Positions 30,519 to 38,861 of a DNA stretch of 48,483 nucleotides are shown piece after piece. The notes beneath the pieces are model-generated. The model did not search any database. It was not told the origin of the DNA and worked only from the letters and a program-made list of their open reading frames with translations. Source of the stretch: Okeania sp. SIO2C9 (GTDB lineage Bacteria > Cyanobacteriota > Cyanobacteriia > Cyanobacteriales > Microcoleaceae). Position 1 is the first letter of the stretch, and each line of letters starts with the position of its first letter. The stretch spans positions 264,068 through 312,550 of the forward strand of contig NZ_JAAHGO010000012.1 in assembly GCF_010672455.1 (NCBI RefSeq). The letters are read 5' to 3'. A program made the position numbers and the translations under genes.

Positions 30519-31073
30519 TTGAAAATACTCCTACGTCTATCTAGGATGATTGATGGTTTGAATGAATTAATTGGACGTCTTACTTATTGGTTAGTCTTAC
30601 TGATGGTCTTAGTTGGTCTTTGGAATGTCATTGGACGCTATTTAGGTAGGAGCATTGGTCAAAACTTAACTTCCAACGCTTTCATTGAAGTTCAGTGGTA
30701 TATTTTTGATCTGGTTTTTCTTCTTGGTGGAGCTTATTGTGTCAAACATAATCAACACGTTCGTGTAGATATTTTTTATGCTCGCTGGAGTCCTAGAAGA
30801 AAAGCTCTAGCTAACTTTATTGGTACGATATTATTTTTAATTCCCTTCAGTCTCATTGTTATTTTTGTTTCTTGGGGAGCTGTTTTAAATTCATGGGCTA
30901 TCCTGGAAACTTCTCCCGATCCTGGTGGGTTACCTCGTTACCCAATTAAGACAATGATTATAGTTAGTTTTGTATTATTGTTTCTCCAAGGAATTTCTGA
31001 AGCAATTAAAAATTTTGCGGTTTTTACAGGCCAACTAACACCCCATAAGGAGTCTGATGAATCTGAGTATTGA
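30519..31073 (+). CDS. TRAP transporter small permease (DctQ-like)
   Basis: 184 residues with four hydrophobic helices, the size and layout of a DctQ subunit. Typical segments are INELIGRLTYWLVLLMVLVG, then FIEVQWYIFDLVFLLGGAYC and HNQHVRVDIFYARWSPRRKA, a Q-W-x-x-D and H-V-R-V-D pattern found in this family. The start is TTG preceded by AGGAGGAG, a near-perfect ribosome site eight bases upstream. The 3' end overlaps the large subunit gene by 17 bp. Together they should import a carboxylate-type solute with Na+ or H+. No periplasmic binding protein (DctP/GtrC type) is in the window. Confidence 0.92.
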   Translation: MKILLRLSRMIDGLNELIGRLTYWLVLLMVLVGLWNVIGRYLGRSIGQNLTSNAFIEVQWYIFDLVFLLGGAYCVKHNQHVRVDIFYARWSPRRKALANFIGTILFLIPFSLIVIFVSWGAVLNSWAILETSPDPGGLPRYPIKTMIIVSFVLLFLQGISEAIKNFAVFTGQLTPHKESDESEY

Positions 31074-32400
31074 ATATGAATGGCTAGGTCCATTAATGTT
31101 TGCAGGAGCACTGGTGCTACTGTCCGTAGGTTACCCTGTAGCTTTTTCTCTGGGGGGTGTCGCCATAATTTTTGGATTAATAGGTATTGCTTTAGAAGTG
31201 TTTGATCCCATATTTATGACTGCAATGCCCCAAAGAATTTTTGGAATTATGGCCAATTATACTTTGTTAGCTATACCCTACTTTATATTTATGGGAGCAA
31301 TGTTGGAAAAGTCCGGTATTGCAGAACAACTCCTGGAAACAATGGGGATACTATTTGGTAAAGTTAGAGGGGGTTTAGCTCTAGCAGTTGTTCTTGTGGG
31401 CGCTCTTTTAGCTGCTACTACTGGCGTGGTTGCTGCCACAGTAGTGGCAATGGGGTTAATTTCTTTACCTATTATGTTGCGGTATGGGTATAATAAAGAA
31501 TTAGCGACGGGTGTTATTGTTGCATCAGGAACTTTGGGACAGATTATACCTCCTAGTGTAGTTTTGGTAGTATTGGCAGACCAACTAGGAATTTCTGTTG
31601 GGGATCTTTTTATTGGCTCTATTTTGCCTGGCCTACTAATGGCAGGAACATTTGCTCTTCATGTTCTAATTGTTGCTTTTATTAGACCAGACTTGGCTCC
31701 AGCTTTACCCTCAGAGGTGCGCAGTCTAGGAGGTAAAGCTATGGGTATTAGGGTGCTAACAGTAATGATTCCACCATTATTATTAATTTTACTGGTTTTG
31801 GGTAGTATATTTTTTGGTATTGCTACACCGACTGAAGCTGGAGCTGTAGGGTGTGTGGGGGCGATCGCTCTGGCTCTGGCCAATGGTCGATTTAGTTGGA
31901 CTTCTTTGAGAAATGTATGTGATGTGACTCTCAAGACAACTACGATGGTGATGTTTATACTTCTTGGATCTACCGCTTTTAGTTTGGTTTTTCGGGGGGT
32001 TGAAGGCGATCGCTTTATGTTTGATTTACTTTCTAATCTTCCTGGGGGGACAGCAGGTTTTTTATTTGTCAGTATGGCAATTGTTTTTTTTCTTGGTTTT
32101 TTTATTGACTTTTTTGAGATTGCTTTTATTGTTGTGCCTTTATTTGTACCTGTTGCTCAACAACTTGGAATTGATTTGGTTTGGTACGGTGTAATATTAG
32201 GGGCTAATCTTCAAGCATCTTTTTTAACGCCTCCCTTTGGTTTTGCACTATTTTACTTACGGGGTGTGGCACCTCCAGAGGTTACTACTGGCGAGATTTA
32301 TAGAGGTGCTATTCAATTTATCTTACTTCAGTTATTGGTATTAGTTATAATTATTTCTTTTCCAGGTATTGTGAATTTTCTGCCATCTTTAAGTAGATAA
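31057..32400 (+). CDS. TRAP transporter large permease (DctM-like)
   Basis: 447 residues, about twelve hydrophobic helices. Family signatures: YPVAFSLGGVAIIFGLIG, NYTLLAIPYFIFMGAMLEKS, GGLALAVVLVGALLAATTGV, LGQIIPPSVVLVVLADQLGI and FIDFFEIAFIVVPLFVPVAQ, ending in NLQASFLTPPFGFALFYLRG. It is close to the cyanobacterial GtrB-like/mannitol-chloroaromatic annotated subgroup. It overlaps the small subunit gene, so translation is coupled. A GCGATCGC site occurs twice inside. The substrate depends on the missing binding protein. Confidence 0.95.
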   Translation: MNLSIEYEWLGPLMFAGALVLLSVGYPVAFSLGGVAIIFGLIGIALEVFDPIFMTAMPQRIFGIMANYTLLAIPYFIFMGAMLEKSGIAEQLLETMGILFGKVRGGLALAVVLVGALLAATTGVVAATVVAMGLISLPIMLRYGYNKELATGVIVASGTLGQIIPPSVVLVVLADQLGISVGDLFIGSILPGLLMAGTFALHVLIVAFIRPDLAPALPSEVRSLGGKAMGIRVLTVMIPPLLLILLVLGSIFFGIATPTEAGAVGCVGAIALALANGRFSWTSLRNVCDVTLKTTTMVMFILLGSTAFSLVFRGVEGDRFMFDLLSNLPGGTAGFLFVSMAIVFFLGFFIDFFEIAFIVVPLFVPVAQQLGIDLVWYGVILGANLQASFLTPPFGFALFYLRGVAPPEVTTGEIYRGAIQFILLQLLVLVIIISFPGIVNFLPSLSR

Positions 32401-32405
32401 AAGTT

Positions 32406-32535
32406 TATAGCGTTGTGCACAGACAACAAGCAACAGGCAACAGCTCATCTGGGGGAGTAAATTGCCGATAGTATAAGACTTTTAGCTATTGGGCACCTCC
32501 TGCAATTTGTAAATATACCAGCGCAAACTGCTATA
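32406..32535. repeat. TATAGC-ended dispersed repeat, copy 2
   Basis: TATAGCGTTGTGCACAGAC to ACCAGCGCAAACTGCTATA, colinear with 3570-3734 and sharing CTCCTGCAATTTGTAAATAT. It separates the TRAP operon from the peptide gene. Confidence 0.65.
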
Positions 32536-32733
32536 ACTTGAAAATCTCTAGCCGAGATATATAGAACTTTTCAGCTCTTTTAACGAATTTTCAAGCAACT
32601 GCTGGAGTTTGAAAATAATTAAAAATTTTTCTCAACTATTGCATAAATCAAGGAGTTTAATATATACTGATTTTCAACTCCAGTTGATATGGAGTTACTG
32701 AGAAAAATATAGCTAAATTTGGAGAAATAAACT

Positions 32734-32925
32734 ATGTCAAGGAGTTTTAATGTTCAGCAAGCTAGGCCTAGTAAAATTCAAATAGAAGTCACAGACATAC
32801 CTGTGTTACAGGGAAAAAACTTGGCATCAGGATTAAACTTTGATGCAGATGGTGGCGACCGTAATTTTGATGCAGATGGTGGCGACCGTAATTTTGATGC
32901 AGATGGTGGCGACCGTCATCATTAA
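32734..32925 (+). CDS. RiPP-like precursor peptide with three NFDADGGDR repeats
   Basis: 63 residues. Residues 1-34 look like a leader: MSRSFNVQQARPSKIQIEVT followed by DIPVLQGKNLASGL. Residues 35-61 are three exact copies of NFDADGGDR, and HH ends the chain. The coding units (32836, 32863 and 32890, 27 bp each) differ at only one base, so they arose by recent duplication. TTTGGAGAAATAAACT upstream of the ATG gives a good ribosome site. Leader plus tandem identical cores is the layout of ribosomally made, modified peptides. The downstream oxygenase and Fe-S protein are candidate modifying enzymes. Asp, Asn, Arg and Phe offer hydroxylation sites. An alternative reading is a DxDGG-type Ca-binding repeat. 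I recognise no named family. Confidence 0.75.
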   Translation: MSRSFNVQQARPSKIQIEVTDIPVLQGKNLASGLNFDADGGDRNFDADGGDRNFDADGGDRHH

Positions 32926-33143
32926 TAGCTAGGTATTCAAGTCTTTTGATTTTTGTTTTGAATATTTAGGGGTTAAGACTTACCTATTTTCCCTATCTTA
33001 ACTAGTCATGTAAGTCTTGAACTGGTGACAACTAAACAGAGCTAACGGTAAAAGCTTTACCCCTGCTTAATAAAAATATTTAGAGTATTGATTTTCAAAA
33101 TTAAGTGTATTATATTTTTTCTTTATACAGCCTAAGAAGCGTT

Positions 33144-33237
33144 TATAGTAATTTCAGTTTAGATTGAGACAAGCGTTTCTTGCCTTGAAAGAGTTTTAGC
33201 GGAAAAAGTGTTTCATTACTTATTTGAAATGACTATA
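33144..33237. repeat. MITE-like family B, copy 2
   Basis: TATAGTAATTTCAGTTTAG to TATTTGAAATGACTATA, with 13-bp imperfect terminal inverted repeats and interior GATTGAGACAAGCG. See 14336 and 40425. Confidence 0.8.
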
Positions 33238-33403
33238 CTAGAGTAAAATAAATATTAAAATACCAAGTAATTTTTTTGTAATATTGTAATATATAGTATT
33301 CATAGTTTCAAAATCTCTTGAAGTACCAAGAGCAACAAGTAAAAAAAATTATTGGTTAGGATTTAGGGTTACAACGTATTCCAGCTTTCTCGAACTTCTA
33401 AAA

Positions 33404-33455
33404 AATACAGAATCAATTTTAGGTAGCTTTATAATATGAGAAAGTTAAGAATTCT
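33404..33455. repeat. 52-bp direct repeat, copy 1
   Basis: AATACAGAATCAATTTTAGG through AGTTAAGAATTCT; identical to 33537-33588, 133 bp downstream. After both copies a similar TTAATAGAAAAAA follows, so a longer upstream segment of the oxygenase gene was probably duplicated. Confidence 0.85.
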
Positions 33456-33536
33456 ATAAAAAACTATGTTAAAAACTTAATAGAAAAAATTATCAATTAC
33501 CTCAAACCTAAAGTATTTAATAAAGCTCTATCAAAG

Positions 33537-33588
33537 AATACAGAATCAATTTTAGGTAGCTTTATAATATGAGAAAGTTAAGAATTCT
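33537..33588. repeat. 52-bp direct repeat, copy 2
   Basis: Identical to 33404-33455. Ends 54 bp before the ATG of the oxygenase, so one or both copies may carry promoter elements (TTATAATAT occurs within). Confidence 0.85.
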
Positions 33589-33642
33589 GGAAAAACCCAT
33601 CCTATAATTATTATCAAAAATTAATAGAAAAAAATCTCGATT

Positions 33643-34803
33643 ATGTCGTGGCTAAAATACTTAATAGAACCATTACCCCAGGAAGAGTTTCTGGAAAACA
33701 ACTGGACAAAGAAAGCGATCGCCATCTCTAGTAAAGGACAGAAAGATTTTACGGACCTTTTTTCATGGGACAAACTCAACCATCTATTGAACTTCCATCA
33801 AATAGAATATCCCGATCTACGTCTTGCATTTGATGGAAAAGTTCTAGAGGCAAAAGAAAATAGAAATCTTACCCAATGGTGTCAGAAAGGTGGGACCTTA
33901 ATCATAGACCAAATTCATCAAAGGATTCCAGAGGTTTCAATGTTGGCCTCAAAACTTAGTTATGAGTTAGGATATCCTACTCAGGTCAATGCTTACTGTT
34001 CCTGGTCTAGTAAACAAGGTTTCTCTCGTCACTACGATACTCACGATGTATTTATTCTGCAAGTAGAAGGAAGCAAACAATGGTATGTCTACACCGACAC
34101 TTTAAAATACCCATTGCCAAATCAGAAATCATCCTCTATTGAACCACCAGAAGAAGAAGCTTATTTAAGTTGTATTTTGCATCCAGGAGATGTACTTTAT
34201 ATACCTCGCGGACATTGGCATTACGCAGTTACAAAAGAGGAACCATCTATTCATCTAACTTTAGGTATTCACGGTAAAACAGGTATCGATCTATTGGAAT
34301 GGTTAATCTGTAAATTACAACACAGAGAAGAGTGGAGAGAAAGTCTACCTTTAAGAGTAGATAATAATTCTTTTAATCTAAGCGTAGAAACCTTAATTCA
34401 AGACTTAGAACAGTATATAAATAATCATAATATTAGCGAAGAATATTATAGCTATTTAGATAGTTTGGGAAAACCTATCTATCAATATGCTTTGCCATAT
34501 CAAGCTGGATTTAATATATTTGCGAATGGTATTGAAACTAAGTTTATAACTCCTCAATTTCAACGTTTAAAAATTTCTCAAATAGCCGAGGGAGAAGATG
34601 AATATAAAATTATAGTTTCTGGTAAAGAAGTATCTCTAAAAGGAGTACCAGAAAAGTGTATTGAAAATTTATTTAGTCGAGAAACATTTACAGGAAAAGA
34701 TGTCATAAATTTACTGCCAGATTATGACTGGGAAATAGATATTATGCCAATGTTATCGAAGTTAGTTAATGAAAAAGTTATTTTTGTAGAACCAGGAGTT
34801 TAA
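33643..34803 (+). CDS. JmjC/cupin-type Fe(II)/2-oxoglutarate oxygenase with C-terminal winged-helix-like domain
   Basis: 386 residues, similar in plan to bacterial ribosomal-oxygenase (YcfD/ROX-type) proteins. The JmjC core is at about 85-215: GFSRHYDTHDVFILQVEGSK gives iron ligands His130 and Asp132, and LHPGDVLYIPRGHWHYAVTK gives the third ligand, probably His193. Residues ~297-386 (QFQRLKISQIAEGEDEYKII ... FVEPGV) form a small alpha/beta domain like the C-terminal winged helix of that family, which in ROX proteins helps hold the substrate. Such enzymes hydroxylate residues such as Arg or His in proteins. Here the repeat peptide upstream is a suggested substrate by position. The domain has been copied downstream four times (34512-36060). 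Start ATG; ribosome site weak. Confidence 0.9.
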   Translation: MSWLKYLIEPLPQEEFLENNWTKKAIAISSKGQKDFTDLFSWDKLNHLLNFHQIEYPDLRLAFDGKVLEAKENRNLTQWCQKGGTLIIDQIHQRIPEVSMLASKLSYELGYPTQVNAYCSWSSKQGFSRHYDTHDVFILQVEGSKQWYVYTDTLKYPLPNQKSSSIEPPEEEAYLSCILHPGDVLYIPRGHWHYAVTKEEPSIHLTLGIHGKTGIDLLEWLICKLQHREEWRESLPLRVDNNSFNLSVETLIQDLEQYINNHNISEEYYSYLDSLGKPIYQYALPYQAGFNIFANGIETKFITPQFQRLKISQIAEGEDEYKIIVSGKEVSLKGVPEKCIENLFSRETFTGKDVINLLPDYDWEIDIMPMLSKLVNEKVIFVEPGV

Positions 34804-34830
34804 ACATGAATACATATATTTGATAATGCC

Positions 34831-35101
34831 ATGGAAACTAAGTTTAAAATCCCTCAATTTCAACCTTTACAAATTTCTCAAATAGCCGGGGAAATATGAA
34901 TATAAAATCATAGTTTCTGGTAAATAAGTATCTATTAAAGGAGTACCAGAAAAGTTTATTGAAAATTTATTTAGTCGAGAAACATTTACAGGAAAAGATG
35001 TCATAAATTTACTGCCAGATTATGACTGGGAAATAGATATTCTGCCCATGTTATCGAAGTTAGTTAATGAAAGAGTTATTTTTGTAGAACCAGGAGTTTA
35101 A
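34831..35101 (+). pseudogene. Domain copy 2, frameshifted
   Basis: Starts ATGGAAACTAAGTTTAAAAT. A deletion at GCCGGGGAAATATGAATA shifts the frame and GGTAAATAAGTATC gives an in-frame stop. The rest of the domain (ENLFSRETFTGKDVINLLPD) is intact in sequence but out of frame. Confidence 0.85.
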
Positions 35102-35127
35102 ACATGAATACATATATTTGATCATCC

Positions 35128-35403
35128 CATGAAAACTAAAAGTTAAAAATACCTCAATTTCAACCTTTACAAATTTCTCAAATAACTGGGGAAGAAGATG
35201 AATATAAAATCATAGTTTCTGGTAAAGAAGTCTCTCTAAAAGGAGTACCAGAAAAGTGTATTGAAAATTTATTTAGTCGAGAAACATTTACGGGAGAAGA
35301 TGTCATAAATTTACTGCCAGATTATGACTGGGAAATAGATATTCTGCCCATGTTATCGAAGTTAGTTAATGAAAGAGTTATTTTTGTAGAACCAGGAGTT
35401 TAA
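35128..35403 (+). pseudogene. Domain copy 3, 1-bp insertion after the start
   Basis: ATGAAAACTAAAAGTTAA stops after five codons because of one extra base pair. Beyond this the frame is open to the normal end FVEPGV. It has the least damage among the broken copies. Confidence 0.85.
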
Positions 35404-35430
35404 ACATGAATACATATATTTGATCATCCC

Positions 35431-35762
35431 ATGAAAACTAAGTTAAAAATACCTCAATTTCAACCTTTACAAATTTCTCAAATAGCTGAGGGAGAAGATA
35501 AATATAAAATTATAGTTTATGTTCAAGAATTAATAATTACTTCTCCTTGAAAAGAAGAGACTTTAAAGCTTAATTATTTGGTAAAGAAGTATCTATTAAA
35601 GGAGTGCCAGAAAAGTTTATTGAAAATTTATTTAGTCGAGAAACATTTACTGGAAAAGACGTCATAAATTTACTCCCTGATTATGACTGGAAAATAGATA
35701 TTATGCCAATATTATCGAAGCTAGTTAATGAAAGAGTTATTTTTGTAGAACCTGGAGTTTAA
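35431..35762 (+). pseudogene. Domain copy 4, interrupted by MITE-like insertion
   Basis: The frame is open from ATG 35431 for about 40 codons (MKTKLKIPQFQPLQISQIAE...) and then enters a ~61-bp insertion (35519-35579), which ends it at TGA. Downstream of the insertion the domain continues GTAAAGAAGTATCTATTAAA as in the other copies. Confidence 0.85.
35519..35579. repeat. MITE-like family A, minimal copy inside domain copy 4
   Basis: TTCAAGAATTAATAATTACT, TCTCCTTGAAAAGAAGAGAC and CTTTAAAGCTTAATTATTTG: both conserved ends of family A with almost no interior. It is absent from the other four domain copies, so it inserted after the duplication, or was selected in this copy. Confidence 0.75.
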
Positions 35763-35784
35763 ACATGAATACATATATTTGATA

Positions 35785-36060
35785 ATGATGGAAACTAAGT
35801 TTAAAATACCTCAATTTCAACGTTTACAAATTTCTCAAATATCCGAGGGAGAAGATGAATATAAAATCATAGTTTCTGAAAAAGAAGTATCTATTAAAGG
35901 AGTGCCAGAAAAGTGTATGAAAAATTTATTTAGTCGAGAAACATTTACTGGAAAAGACGTCATAAATTTACTCCCTGATTATGACTGGAAAATAGATATT
36001 ATGCCAATATTATCGAAGCTAGTTAATGAAAGAGTTATTTTTGTAGAACCTGGAGTTTAA
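35785..36060 (+). CDS. Stand-alone winged-helix-like domain (copy 5)
   Basis: About 91 residues, intact: METKFKIPQFQRLQISQISE, EYKIIVSEKEVSIKGVPEKC and FVEPGV at the end. It is the only downstream copy without a frameshift. An ATG pair occurs at 35785/35788 (a TTG at 35779 is also in frame). Its stop is only 2 nt before the ATG of the ferredoxin-like gene, so it can couple that gene's translation in the way the full oxygenase gene must have done before. It could work as a separate peptide-binding subunit, comparable in size to stand-alone recognition elements of RiPP systems, or have no function beyond keeping the coupling. No clear ribosome site is seen. Confidence 0.65.
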   Translation: MMETKFKIPQFQRLQISQISEGEDEYKIIVSEKEVSIKGVPEKCMKNLFSRETFTGKDVINLLPDYDWKIDIMPILSKLVNERVIFVEPGV

Positions 36061-36062
36061 AT

Positions 36063-37073
36063 ATGAATACATTTTTTTGCGCTGATGCTTGCCGAAAAGC
36101 AAATGAAGATATTATTGGAAGTGGTACAAACTATTCCATATATGTGTTGATAGAGTGCCCTTACCCTTGGGATTATAATGCTTATGAGTCTCGTTATCTA
36201 CCAGAAAATTTAGAGATTTTGATGAGAGAAGTCAGTAAATCTAAGCTTTCAGTCAGATTTTTACTAATCACTCAAAATCAAAATCAAAGACAAAATAATA
36301 GAAAAATTTTAATCTATGAAAAAGAGCAAAGTTCATTTGTAAGTGGTTATAAAAAATATGAATTTGATGTAGAACATCCTGAAAAAATGGCTCCTGTTAT
36401 TCAAAAATATTTAGCAGGAGATAATTCAGATATTAATGCTCAAGAAAATCAAATTAGGGATATGTTAGTTTGTACTCACGGTAGCCATGATAAGTGCTGT
36501 GCTAAATATGGTAATCCGTTTTATATGCAAGCTAAAAAAACTATTTCCGAATTGGGTGTAAAAAATACTAGGATTTGGAAAGCAAGTCACTTTGGTGGCC
36601 ATAGATTCGCACCTACTATGATTGATTTTCCTGATGGTAGATATTATGGGTTACTTGATGGGGAATCTTTTAAATCTATTTTGCTACGAACGGGCAATAT
36701 TAAATTATTAGGTGGTGTATATCGAGGTTGGGGCATTTTACCAACTTGTATTCAGGCATTAGAAAGGGAACTTATGTTCCGCCATGGTTGGGAATGGTTT
36801 GAGTATAAGATTAATTTTTTAGACCTCGATATAAATTCTGATAGAACATTAATTAACACTCAATTAGCTGTAGTTAAACCTGATGGATCTAGATACACTT
36901 GTGAAGGTAGGTTAGTCAAAGATGAAAGTAAAACTATTCAACTCAAAGGTTCCTGCGATGCTACTAATAGTTATGAATTTATAAAGTATTATGTTAGCCA
37001 TATTAATTTCACAATTGAACGGAAAATTACTGAGAAAGTAGTTGTAAATTATCCTCAGAAAAAAGCAAGTTAA
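36063..37073 (+). CDS. Sucrase/ferredoxin-like (thioredoxin-fold Fe-S) protein
   Basis: 336 residues of the Suc_Fer-like family (Apd1/Aim32 relatives), whose thioredoxin-like C-terminal half binds a [2Fe-2S] cluster. Visible: MLVCTHGSHDKCCAKYGNPF with Cys137, Cys145 and Cys146, and KASHFGGHRFAPTMIDFPDG with His176 and His180, followed by GVYRGWGILPTCIQALEREL. The N-terminal Cys pair FFCADACRK is also family-typical. It could pass electrons to a partner enzyme. It follows the domain array by 2 nt and was once directly behind the oxygenase gene, which is strong evidence for a shared task. The 3' end overlaps the convergent GNAT gene by ~47 bp. Confidence 0.9.
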   Translation: MNTFFCADACRKANEDIIGSGTNYSIYVLIECPYPWDYNAYESRYLPENLEILMREVSKSKLSVRFLLITQNQNQRQNNRKILIYEKEQSSFVSGYKKYEFDVEHPEKMAPVIQKYLAGDNSDINAQENQIRDMLVCTHGSHDKCCAKYGNPFYMQAKKTISELGVKNTRIWKASHFGGHRFAPTMIDFPDGRYYGLLDGESFKSILLRTGNIKLLGGVYRGWGILPTCIQALERELMFRHGWEWFEYKINFLDLDINSDRTLINTQLAVVKPDGSRYTCEGRLVKDESKTIQLKGSCDATNSYEFIKYYVSHINFTIERKITEKVVVNYPQKKAS

Positions 37074-37497
37074 AGTACATAAATTGATGGGGTATGTCTA
37101 AAAATTGAAATGGCTCGCCAGTTTCAATAAAACCTATTCTTTTATAGAACTTAGAAGCACTGAGACGAGTCATTACTCTCAAATGTTTTAGTTGTTTTTG
37201 CTTGGCAATTTCAATAATTTTTTTGGTTATAGCTGTTCCTATTCCCTGAAATTGAAATTCAGGCAAAACACAAAGATATGCAATACTTCCTAATTCTTCA
37301 GATATTTCCCGGAGTCTAGCTGACCCAATAATTTGTTGTTTGCAAATAGCAATAATATGTAAAGCACTATCTTCATATTCGTCTTTTTCTGTTCCTATCT
37401 CCATATTTATTGGCGCTCTTAATACTAACCAACGTTGATAATACATTGCATCTTTTTCTTGTTGGTTTTGAATTAAGCGAATCTGAAATTCTCTCAT
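37027..37497 (-). CDS. GNAT family N-acetyltransferase
   Basis: 156 residues. The acetyl-CoA binding motif is VLPEFQFQGIGTAITKKIIE (Q-x-x-G-I/x-G), with SASKFYKRIGFIETGEPFQF as the usual C-terminal FY-x-x-x-GF strand. Two conserved pieces, RWLVLRAPINMEIGTEKDEY and HIIAICKQQIIGSARLRE, suggest a distinct cyanobacterial subgroup. The substrate is unknown. Convergent with, and overlapping, the ferredoxin-like gene, so I do not count it as part of that operon. Confidence 0.9.
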   Translation of the reverse strand: MREFQIRLIQNQQEKDAMYYQRWLVLRAPINMEIGTEKDEYEDSALHIIAICKQQIIGSARLREISEELGSIAYLCVLPEFQFQGIGTAITKKIIEIAKQKQLKHLRVMTRLSASKFYKRIGFIETGEPFQFLDIPHQFMYFNLLFSEDNLQLLSQ

Positions 37498-38141
37498 TTT
37501 TCAAGCATCTTTAATGGGTGTATCTCAATTTTAAATAAAGCCAAAAATTTATCGCTTTTAGGAAACAACTCATCTGGCAACAGGGAATATATAGGAGAAA
37601 GTATGTTTGCAAATATTGAGATGCACCCTCTTTAATTATGGCTTACCGATTAAATTTAAAACCATTGACAGAGTTTGGCTAAAGCCTTTTTGTGGTTGAA
37701 AAAAGGTAAGTATTCAGCCTTCAGCTATCAGCTTAATTAGCTTTAATTGTATAGGTTAAAAACTCAAAACAAGTCTTGCTTGTGTTTCAATTTATGGGTA
37801 GAAAATGTAGTATAAGTTAAACGAATTTTTACTTCATTCATTAAAAAGCTGAGAGCTGACCGCTAGAGAGCTGACCGCTAATAGCTGTTTGCCCAGCAGT
37901 CCGCAGGAAATGCTTACGAAAAAAGTACCAGGTTTCCAGTCCAAAACCCTCAAAAAGTTAGCATAACATAAAAGGCATAATAATTGCAGAAAAATCACTC
38001 TAAAAATTGTTCCAACTACCTCCTAATTAAATGCTATTCTCCGTTCCTCCTAACTACTTTCTACTCCCCCACTCCCCTACTCCCCCAATCCTGAAAAAGA
38101 CTTTATCAGCAAACCCTAATTAAAGGCGATCGCCATTCAGA
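37498..38141. other. Intergenic region, no gene seen
   Basis: 644 bp: TCAGCCTTCAGCTATCAGCT near 37700, AGAGCTGACCGCTAGAGAGC duplication near 37852-37875, a TTTGCCCAGCAGTCCGCAGG fragment, and CTACTCCCCCACTCCCCTAC near 38072. Nothing coding. Confidence 0.55.
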
Positions 38142-38861
38142 TTAAGGCCAAGCAGGATGAGATAATATAGACCCAAACATTCGTACCCCACGCAGTAAAT
38201 TGGATAGAGGCAAATGGCCTTTTGGCGCACTCAAATCCCAAGTAAATTCATTTGGATATCTCGTCCAACTATTGCCATTTTTCCAGCCGATTTTTGGTAG
38301 CAACTTATCCCAATTTTTACCCACGCTTAACCACATTTCTCTCTGTACAGAATATCCAAATTTACCTTCTGAATAAACCAACCACATAGTATTAATAGTC
38401 TGGAAATCTGGAATGGGAATACTATCTACTTCTGAAAAATAAAGCCATTTTCTTTGTACAGCTGCCTCTCCTGCCAATTCACACAATTTTTGCATAGTTA
38501 ATTTATCAGCTTCTAAAAAATCTTGATGAGCTAGTTTTACTTGTATATGACTATAGTCAACATTAGATTCTGATTTTATAGGTACAACTCCCAGAGGAAA
38601 ATTTTTATTTATAAATTCATCAACTTTCGATGAATCTACTTGACGTAAAACTTGGTATATTTTTCCTGAAATTATAGTAGGTGAATCTAATTTTTGCGTT
38701 TGTAAAAATTCCATTAATATTTGCAAACCATCATTCCCTGTTTGTGCCAAAAGAGGAATTACCTGTAACTGTTTTTTTTCAGAACTAGATTCTAATTGAG
38801 ATTGCAGTTCAGCTATATTAAATGAGGGGTTTGTTGTAGAATTAATCCTTGATTCTGTCAT
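38142..38861 (-). CDS. gun4: GUN4, Mg-chelatase regulator
   Basis: 239 residues, full-length cyanobacterial GUN4. The N-terminal helical bundle is at about 16-90 (IAELQSQLESSSEKKQLQVI, LLAQTGNDGLQILMEFLQTQ) and the porphyrin-binding core at about 108-235: LAHQDFLEADKLTMQKLCEL, VDSIPIPDFQTINTMWLVYS, FGYSVQREMWLSVGKNWDKL, and GNSWTRYPNEFTWDLSAPKG. GUN4 binds protoporphyrin IX and Mg-protoporphyrin and stimulates Mg-chelatase in chlorophyll synthesis. The many GUN4-domain proteins of cyanobacteria are fusions; this one has the plain, authentic layout. Monocistronic. Confidence 0.93.
   Translation of the reverse strand: MTESRINSTTNPSFNIAELQSQLESSSEKKQLQVIPLLAQTGNDGLQILMEFLQTQKLDSPTIISGKIYQVLRQVDSSKVDEFINKNFPLGVVPIKSESNVDYSHIQVKLAHQDFLEADKLTMQKLCELAGEAAVQRKWLYFSEVDSIPIPDFQTINTMWLVYSEGKFGYSVQREMWLSVGKNWDKLLPKIGWKNGNSWTRYPNEFTWDLSAPKGHLPLSNLLRGVRMFGSILSHPAWP

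Follow-up and report, generated by a model that had tools for sequence, protein, structure and literature searches.

β-Hydroxyaspartate siderophores are products of nonribosomal peptide synthetases (NRPS), and methanobactin and the bufferins are copper-binding RiPP metallophores. ROX oxygenases, which have a C-terminal winged-helix domain, act on ribosomal proteins. Okeania and Trichodesmium are marine cyanobacteria. PMC4642986 describes Trichodesmium as an organism not believed to make siderophores and lacking known TonB-dependent receptors; the corresponding part of PMC10734445 describes a T. thiebautii MAG with no known siderophore pathway. Domains resembling RiPP recognition elements (RREs) have been reported as fusions to JmjC oxygenases (PF08007), with bacterial homologues in “RiPP-like genomic contexts” (PMC12710340).

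The window analysed here is a 48,483-nt stretch of DNA from Okeania sp. SIO2C9. It contains a real, conserved gene for a RiPP-type precursor with an identified partner, a JmjC_2 oxygenase (Table 1). The translated 63-aa product consists of MSRSFNVQQARPSKIQIEVTDIPVLQGKNLASGL, three copies of NFDADGGDR, and HH. The sequence-only reading had described a 63-codon gene with a good ribosome site, a 34-residue leader, three NFDADGGDR units and a His-His end, all of which we confirmed; the one silent base change that it reported between the 27-bp units is AAC versus AAT in the first codon, and this is the sole difference among the three units. The genome (10.9 Mb, 317 contigs) encodes a single copy of the precursor, the next match having an E value of only 1.15. 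Neither Pfam nor NCBIfam yielded a match to the precursor at E ≤ 1, and the curated precursor models that they include (Nif11/NHLP and other catalogued families) were likewise without a match at this threshold.

Table 1. Features of the precursor–oxygenase region of the window
Feature	Position	Strand	Basis
Conserved promoter block	32613–32668	+	Invariant columns, 12/12 Okeania/Hydrocoleum/Trichodesmium sequences
Invariant TTCTCAACTATTGCATA in promoter block	32629–32645	+	12/12 near relatives
−35-like TTGCAT	32639–32644	+	Within conserved promoter block
−10-like TATACT	32663–32668	+	Within conserved promoter block
Small 5′-UTR hairpin AACTCC...GGAGTT	32676–32696	+	6 predicted pairs, 12 sequences
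Ribosome-binding site GGAG	32721–32724	+	Sequence
Precursor peptide gene, 63 aa	32734–32925	+	ATG start, TAA stop; homologue 5′ of oxygenase, 43/45 loci
Leader, 34 codons, carries conserved RPSKIQIEVTDI	32734–32835	+	Alignment of precursors
Three 27-bp core units (NFDADGGDR)	32836–32916	+	Repeat finding, codon comparison
Core units, counted from Asn codon	32836–32862; 32863–32889; 32890–32916	+	
Tandem repeat, period 27, 100% matches	32839–32916		Tandem Repeats Finder
His-His and stop	32917–32925	+	Sequence
JmjC_2 oxygenase, 386 aa	33643–34803	+	PF08007, 6.5e-28
Oxygenase C-terminal domain, possibly leader-binding (RRE-like)	34537–34800	+	Predicted bbb-aaa order, two low-confidence models
Four tandem C-terminal-domain copies, ~302-bp period	34831–36060	+	Tandem repeat and frame analysis
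C-terminal-domain copies, frame-broken	34831–35101; 35431–35762	+	
C-terminal-domain copy open over domain, its ATG out of frame	35129–35403	+	
C-terminal-domain copy, open 93-aa ORF	35779–36060	+	
Suc_Fer-like protein	36063–37073	+	PF06999, 1.4e-30
Convergent GNAT acetyltransferase	37027–37497	−	PF13673, 3.3e-15

At all six Okeania loci retrieved (L033–L037 and L042), and also at Hydrocoleum and Trichodesmium loci, the same neighbour gene is preceded on its 5′ side by a homologous ORF with this leader; in Okeania sp. SIO2B3, this neighbour gene is 96% identical to its counterpart in the window. This recurrence makes the repeat peptide gene more than a chance feature. The precursors have SKIQ(I/V)EV as a conserved leader motif, followed by one to three copies of a D-x-D-G-G-D core, with N-x-D-[AS]-D-G-[GS]-D-x as the common unit. 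Three identical FDADGGDR units are present in L033–L035 as in the window, and the remaining Okeania, Hydrocoleum and Trichodesmium loci have two or three variant units. Overall, three units occur in the window, L033–L035, L037, L038 and L042, two units in L036, L044, L128, L130–L132 and L134, and a single unit in many other loci (for example NVDADGSDVTNE, NVDSDGGD and FDGDDGSD). The leader-plus-repeat precursor proposed in the sequence-only reading thus holds in outline, with a conserved leader and a core of variable copy number, and the lack of a conserved repeat in relatives, named there as grounds for rejection, is excluded. Two hallmarks of RiPPs are found together: a short precursor with a conserved leader and a separable core, and a modifying enzyme inherited with it (43 of 45 loci; co-occurrence with a precursor profile).

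Among five Okeania sequences (the window and L033–L036), pN/pS was 0.088 for the core and 0.73 for the leader, and core differences summed over pairs comprised 46 silent and 16 replacement changes, with the caveat for both comparisons that the pairs are not independent. The three units of Okeania hirsuta (L034) are separated by silent differences at several sites, yet each encodes FDADGGDR. By these sequence comparisons, the core is more constrained than the leader. A DNA-repeat artefact was rejected because the constraint acts on amino acids.

We identified 28 distinct cores, cut mechanically two residues ahead of the first Asp, which slightly lowers the counts of Asn, Phe and Glu. In this mechanical count, Asp and Gly occur in all 28 cores, Asn in 24, His in 13, Phe in 12, Arg in 11 and Tyr in 5; Cys and Trp occur in none, and 27 of the 28 have at least three acidic residues. 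Two precursors in genome G409 (FDGNDGGADG and FDGADGGKDG) retain three Asp while the adjacent residues vary. Since Asp and Gly are present throughout and Arg, Phe and His in under half of the cores, Asp is the likeliest target and, by elimination, the residue open to hydroxylation in every distinct core. The sequence-only reading had listed Asp, Asn, Arg and Phe as modified residues; Asp stands, and Arg and Phe, missing from most distinct cores, were rejected as general targets. Excision of each nonapeptide, suggested in the same reading, is unsupported because the window proteins scanned included no recognisable protease and many relatives have a single unit. No exporter was recognised beside the window gene. 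A cyanobactin or graspetide was rejected, as neither a PatA/PatG-type protease nor an ATP-grasp ligase was found among the six neighbouring window proteins scanned (31057–38861).

Relatives of the oxygenase were identified in 25 of 59 near genomes (E ≤ 1e-10), 21 of 386 genomes sampled from the phylum (E ≤ 1e-30) and 83 of 388 sampled from the order (E ≤ 1e-60). We compared 93 loci (91 distinct places), of which the 45 most like the window formed the set for synteny; this set omits the duplicates L124 and L163, locus L161, six nested loci without a precursor (L136, L080, L071 and L139–L141), and all clade B, TPR-linked, Nostoc and Streptomyces loci. The JmjC_2 gene is preceded on its 5′ side by a precursor combining the leader motif with an Asp-rich core in 43 of the 45, including L135, which escaped the core pattern scan and was counted from an earlier locus comparison; the two exceptions are L043, cut by a contig end, and L133, which is not cut. 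This result excludes the other outcome that the sequence-only reading had held to be fatal, namely no homologues near an oxygenase or other modifying enzyme. A Suc_Fer-like gene follows 3′ of the oxygenase in 40 of the 45 loci (of the other five, contig ends truncate L038 and L125 but not L133, L134 or L069), and a GNAT gene lies within the fetched stretch in 30. The six nested loci, which belong to the wider clade, have neither a recognised precursor nor Suc_Fer.

A profile built from 16 precursors was searched in the 386 phylum genomes. It matched at E ≤ 1e-6 in 10 genomes, all 10 of which carry the enzyme; seven others gave matches only at E 0.02–0.05, and none of the other 376 genomes gave a strong match. 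Because eight of the 10 had themselves contributed sequences to the profile, what counts in this result is the absence of strong matches in enzyme-free genomes. Eleven of the 21 enzyme-bearing genomes had no strong precursor match, and most of those checked have a peptide of the clade B type.

All 90 enzymes in the alignment, in which two genomes are represented twice, share residues H130, D132, K145 and H193 of the oxygenase. These residues correspond to those of NO66 and give the HxD...H triad and the 2-oxoglutarate Lys of a JmjC_2 oxygenase; by alignment, H130, D132 and H193 are the predicted iron ligands and K145 the predicted 2-oxoglutarate residue. The nearest solved relatives (PDB) are NO66, MINA, YxbC and YcfD, and the match to them ends before the C-terminal domain. 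AlphaFold models had a pLDDT of 33.5 for the whole oxygenase (with nine close sequences) and 50.8 for the C-terminal domain. The bbb-aaa order predicted for this domain is the element order required of RREs, as set out in the relevant part of PMC12710340. Foldseek with the domain model returned nothing at E ≤ 0.001, a PDB profile search with the domain gave only E ≥ 0.086, and Pfam likewise gave no RRE support; the models make an RRE-like, leader-binding domain possible. Domain copies also lie 3′ of the oxygenase gene in several other Okeania and Trichodesmium genomes, with differing copy number. A scan of IMG/VR gave three matches at 31–39% identity.

Upstream of the precursor, TTCTCAACTATTGCATA in the promoter block resembles the FurA consensus AAATAAATTCTCAATAAAT, as quoted from PMC4005646, a likeness that is suggestive only. 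We built a Fur matrix from 59 published sites and ran it on 29 chosen window-type and 13 clade B promoters; no more than 5 of 100 shuffles attained the score of the best site for 9 of the 29 and 1 of the 13, and the Fur-like site was not significant at L079 (68 of 100 shuffles) or L081 (8 of 100). In the 5′-UTR hairpin, two of the six predicted pairs show changes on both sides across the 12 sequences, albeit with a weak structure (whole consensus −5.4 kcal/mol); the compensatory changes distinguish Okeania (AACTCC/GGAGTT) from Trichodesmium (AACTTC/GAAGTT). Rfam had no match in 32300–33700, and promoter and terminator scans scored no better than shuffle level. Of the loci compared, just the 12 nearest have the two TRAP-transporter genes that lie 5′ of the precursor in the window (30519–32400). 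Between the precursor and oxygenase genes, a sequence of roughly 50 bp (AATACAGAATCAATTTTAGGTAGC...) is present in two copies (33408–33465 and 33537–33590). Elsewhere, the window has a 374-bp tandem array of 2.6 copies (1–985) and many 7-bp tandem repeats at intergenic sites.

Using the L079 and L081 proteins as queries, we searched all 93 loci for iron genes; these flank three loci, all in one family (f12; 9 genomes examined, 4 with the enzyme), and the other 90, window included, are without them. At L079 (genome G204), the order is AraC regulator, precursor, JmjC_2, TonB receptor, Peripla_BP_2 protein, MFS and Suc_Fer, and the enzyme groups inside the window's clade (local support 0.993). 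L081 (G409) carries, in an order unlike that of L079, a TonB receptor, binding protein, two precursors, JmjC_2, Suc_Fer, GNAT and MFS. The gene content of L161 (G498) is similar, but the enzyme is matched only in part, no precursor turned up and an NRPS lies ~20 kb away; the linkage of receptor, binding protein and exporter seen at L079 and L081 is weak at this locus. In G508, a 3.3-kb contig carries a precursor, the enzyme and Suc_Fer; this genome (85% complete) has no plug domain and has NIS genes. The 2.2-Mb genome of G409 has a single TonB-receptor plug domain, located 2.2 kb from the enzyme, and a genome-wide domain search of it found neither IucA/IucC nor an NRPS condensation domain. G204 has five plug domains, and the contigs of its NIS genes, NRPS genes and precursor–oxygenase unit carry one each. 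The TonB-receptor, binding-protein and MFS neighbours suggest that in f12 the precursor and oxygenase are the biosynthetic part of a siderophore locus. The iron-responsive Tery_3823–3826 cluster of Trichodesmium was also considered and gave no match; it has lipocalin, TrkA-like, esterase and flavin-monooxygenase domains.

The window genome has no TonB plug domain (the plug-domain search was positive in 3 of 14 control genomes), no IucA/IucC, one Peripla_BP_2 match and 27 condensation-domain matches. A classical TonB-imported siderophore therefore does not fit this organism, and if the window peptide binds iron, either its uptake must differ or it must act inside or at the cell.

We propose that the JmjC_2 oxygenase, whose gene lies 0.7 kb 3′ of the precursor gene, very probably takes the 63-aa peptide as its substrate. 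The leader strand RPSKIQIEVTDI would probably be gripped by the small C-terminal domain of the oxygenase, and the JmjC centre would then hydroxylate Asp in each D-x-D-G-G-D unit, most likely at the β carbon. Asp is a reasonably probable target, and its β-hydroxylation is the likeliest chemistry of the core. Three β-hydroxy-Asp per unit would provide six oxygen donors and hence could hold one Fe(III) per unit, so that the product would most likely be an iron-binding peptide, a ribosomal counterpart of the β-hydroxyaspartate siderophores. The Suc_Fer-like protein, which we take to be a [2Fe-2S] protein, is a candidate redox partner or ferric reductase. Iron as the ligand is a tentative assignment, and more tentative still for the window's own organism. 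The whole model, a JmjC_2-hydroxylated Asp peptide with an iron-binding product, comes close to an even chance without reaching it, and it builds on observed co-occurrence, synteny, conservation of motifs and catalytic residues, and siderophore-type neighbours in one family. Together, these suggest a gene-encoded metal-binding peptide of a kind so far undescribed, possibly a RiPP metallophore, that is, a ribosomal siderophore. Neither the neighbouring JmjC_2 gene nor a possible iron link figured in the sequence-only reading, which was free of annotation.

The peptide could instead be a JmjC_2-modified RiPP whose product is a signal, an antibiotic or a peptide cross-linked by another oxidation. 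This is rather unlikely, although it shares all of the evidence from enzyme–precursor co-occurrence; moreover, Orn is the residue targeted by JmjC enzymes in biphenomycin RiPPs (PMC12707348 and PMC12257519, in the parts concerned), a 2-oxoglutarate-dependent RiPP macrocyclisation is reported in the title of another paper, and genes for RiPP-type ABC transporters or SagB-like proteins lie close to L080 and L071. The siderophore-type genes at L079 and L081, the lone plug domain of G409, and the retention of three Asp where other residues vary argue for a metallophore.

Enzymes of clade B (23 loci, 35–46% identity) are paired with a convergent gene that has no Pfam match and whose motifs read as nucleotidyltransferase-like; none of the 23 loci has Suc_Fer. 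Their peptides, encoded 5′ of the JmjC_2 genes (L052, L053, L054, L084, L144, L157 and others), have DYDQ, NVDQ or DYSRN repeats, look secreted by eye and keep a similar strand (NRLHVEIEDL, IEVEVVNL). At L074, a 466-aa protein with BOF-type repeats (at −2263 from the enzyme) ends in a leader-plus-core module, with the C-terminus NRIQMEITDI...DRDYNYDQPDFDYDHG. On three Streptomyces plasmids (L110, L111 and L112; 3 examined of 83 records with matches), ORFs of 43–52 residues ending in SDGGGTG(K/R)SDGND or SDNTGGKSDMNDT lie directly 5′ of JmjC_2 and aldo/keto reductase genes; these ORFs matched no NCBIfam model, and no Pfam precursor family above its cut-off. Four small ORFs beside other JmjC_2 genes had no NCBIfam match and one Pfam match at E 0.087, below the cut-off. 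ORFs ending in WS(G/S)GEGDDNA lie 5′ of JmjC_2 and Suc_Fer genes at L109 (a plasmid of Nostoc sp. C057) and L160, the latter with two such ORFs. A JmjC_2 enzyme paired with a small Asp/Asn/Gly-rich substrate may represent a general pattern.

BOF proteins and two-component genes have calcium links in other bacteria, and in clade B they are neighbours at 12 and 14–15 of the 23 loci, respectively. Together with the Asp-rich spacing, this favours the alternative already offered in the sequence-only reading, in which the DxDGGD units bind Ca2+ directly, hydroxylated or not, as a small acidic calcium-binding peptide. We consider it improbable: the window precursor matches no Pfam model of a Ca2+-binding repeat, many precursors have one short unit only, and the linkage to the oxygenase, Suc_Fer and TonB receptor is left unexplained. 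That the oxygenase is a ROX-type ribosomal-protein hydroxylase beside an unrelated peptide gene, as its best solved relatives NO66, MINA and YcfD might imply, is highly improbable given the enzyme–precursor co-occurrence and synteny over many genera and the patchy spread in the order and phylum samples, which is unlike that of a housekeeping enzyme.

If the iron-binding model is correct, iron chelators can be encoded in short genes and completed by one oxygenase, and such chelators would be missed by genome mining for NRPS or NIS siderophores. For Trichodesmium, not thought to make siderophores and with no known pathway, this makes an open question directly testable. Its broadest form is a class of ribosomal siderophores in which JmjC_2 makes three β-hydroxy-Asp per unit, a hexadentate Fe(III) ligand, in many cyanobacteria including Trichodesmium, and in which related Asp/Asn-rich peptides take the family to secreted proteins and Streptomyces; this we hold with more doubt than belief. 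Iron aside, the precursor–oxygenase pair is a widespread peptide family whose precursor has no Pfam or NCBIfam model, and no account of the family appeared among the matches listed for literal terms in the open-access literature.

Like the window enzyme, the fusions in PMC12710340 combine a PF08007 oxygenase with a small C-terminal domain, but the sections on them describe no precursor, core motif, cyanobacterial family or iron role. In the biphenomycin system, too, JmjC-type oxygenases (BipG/BpmG and the cupin-like PbsQ) act on a ribosomal precursor; as portrayed in the parts of PMC12707348 and PMC12257519 that treat it, this system has an Orn target, an FRF-type core, and MNIO, arginase and radical SAM partners, whereas the window and its relatives have Asp-rich cores and none of these partners was found among the window proteins scanned. 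The nitrilobacillins, modified by the MNIO PesHI, resemble the proposed product in having β-hydroxy-Asp in a ribosomal peptide; however, the account in PMC13060819 concerns an unrelated enzyme family, a single Asp and a C-terminal nitrile. The ROX oxygenases NO66, MINA and YcfD have the JmjC_2 fold, HxD...H triad and Lys of the window enzyme; they act on ribosomal proteins, whereas the window enzyme's gene travels with a small peptide gene. Methanobactin and the bufferins embody the same idea of a gene-encoded metallophore, with Cys-derived copper ligands instead, and the β-hydroxyaspartate siderophores have the same ligand chemistry as that proposed here, assembled nonribosomally.
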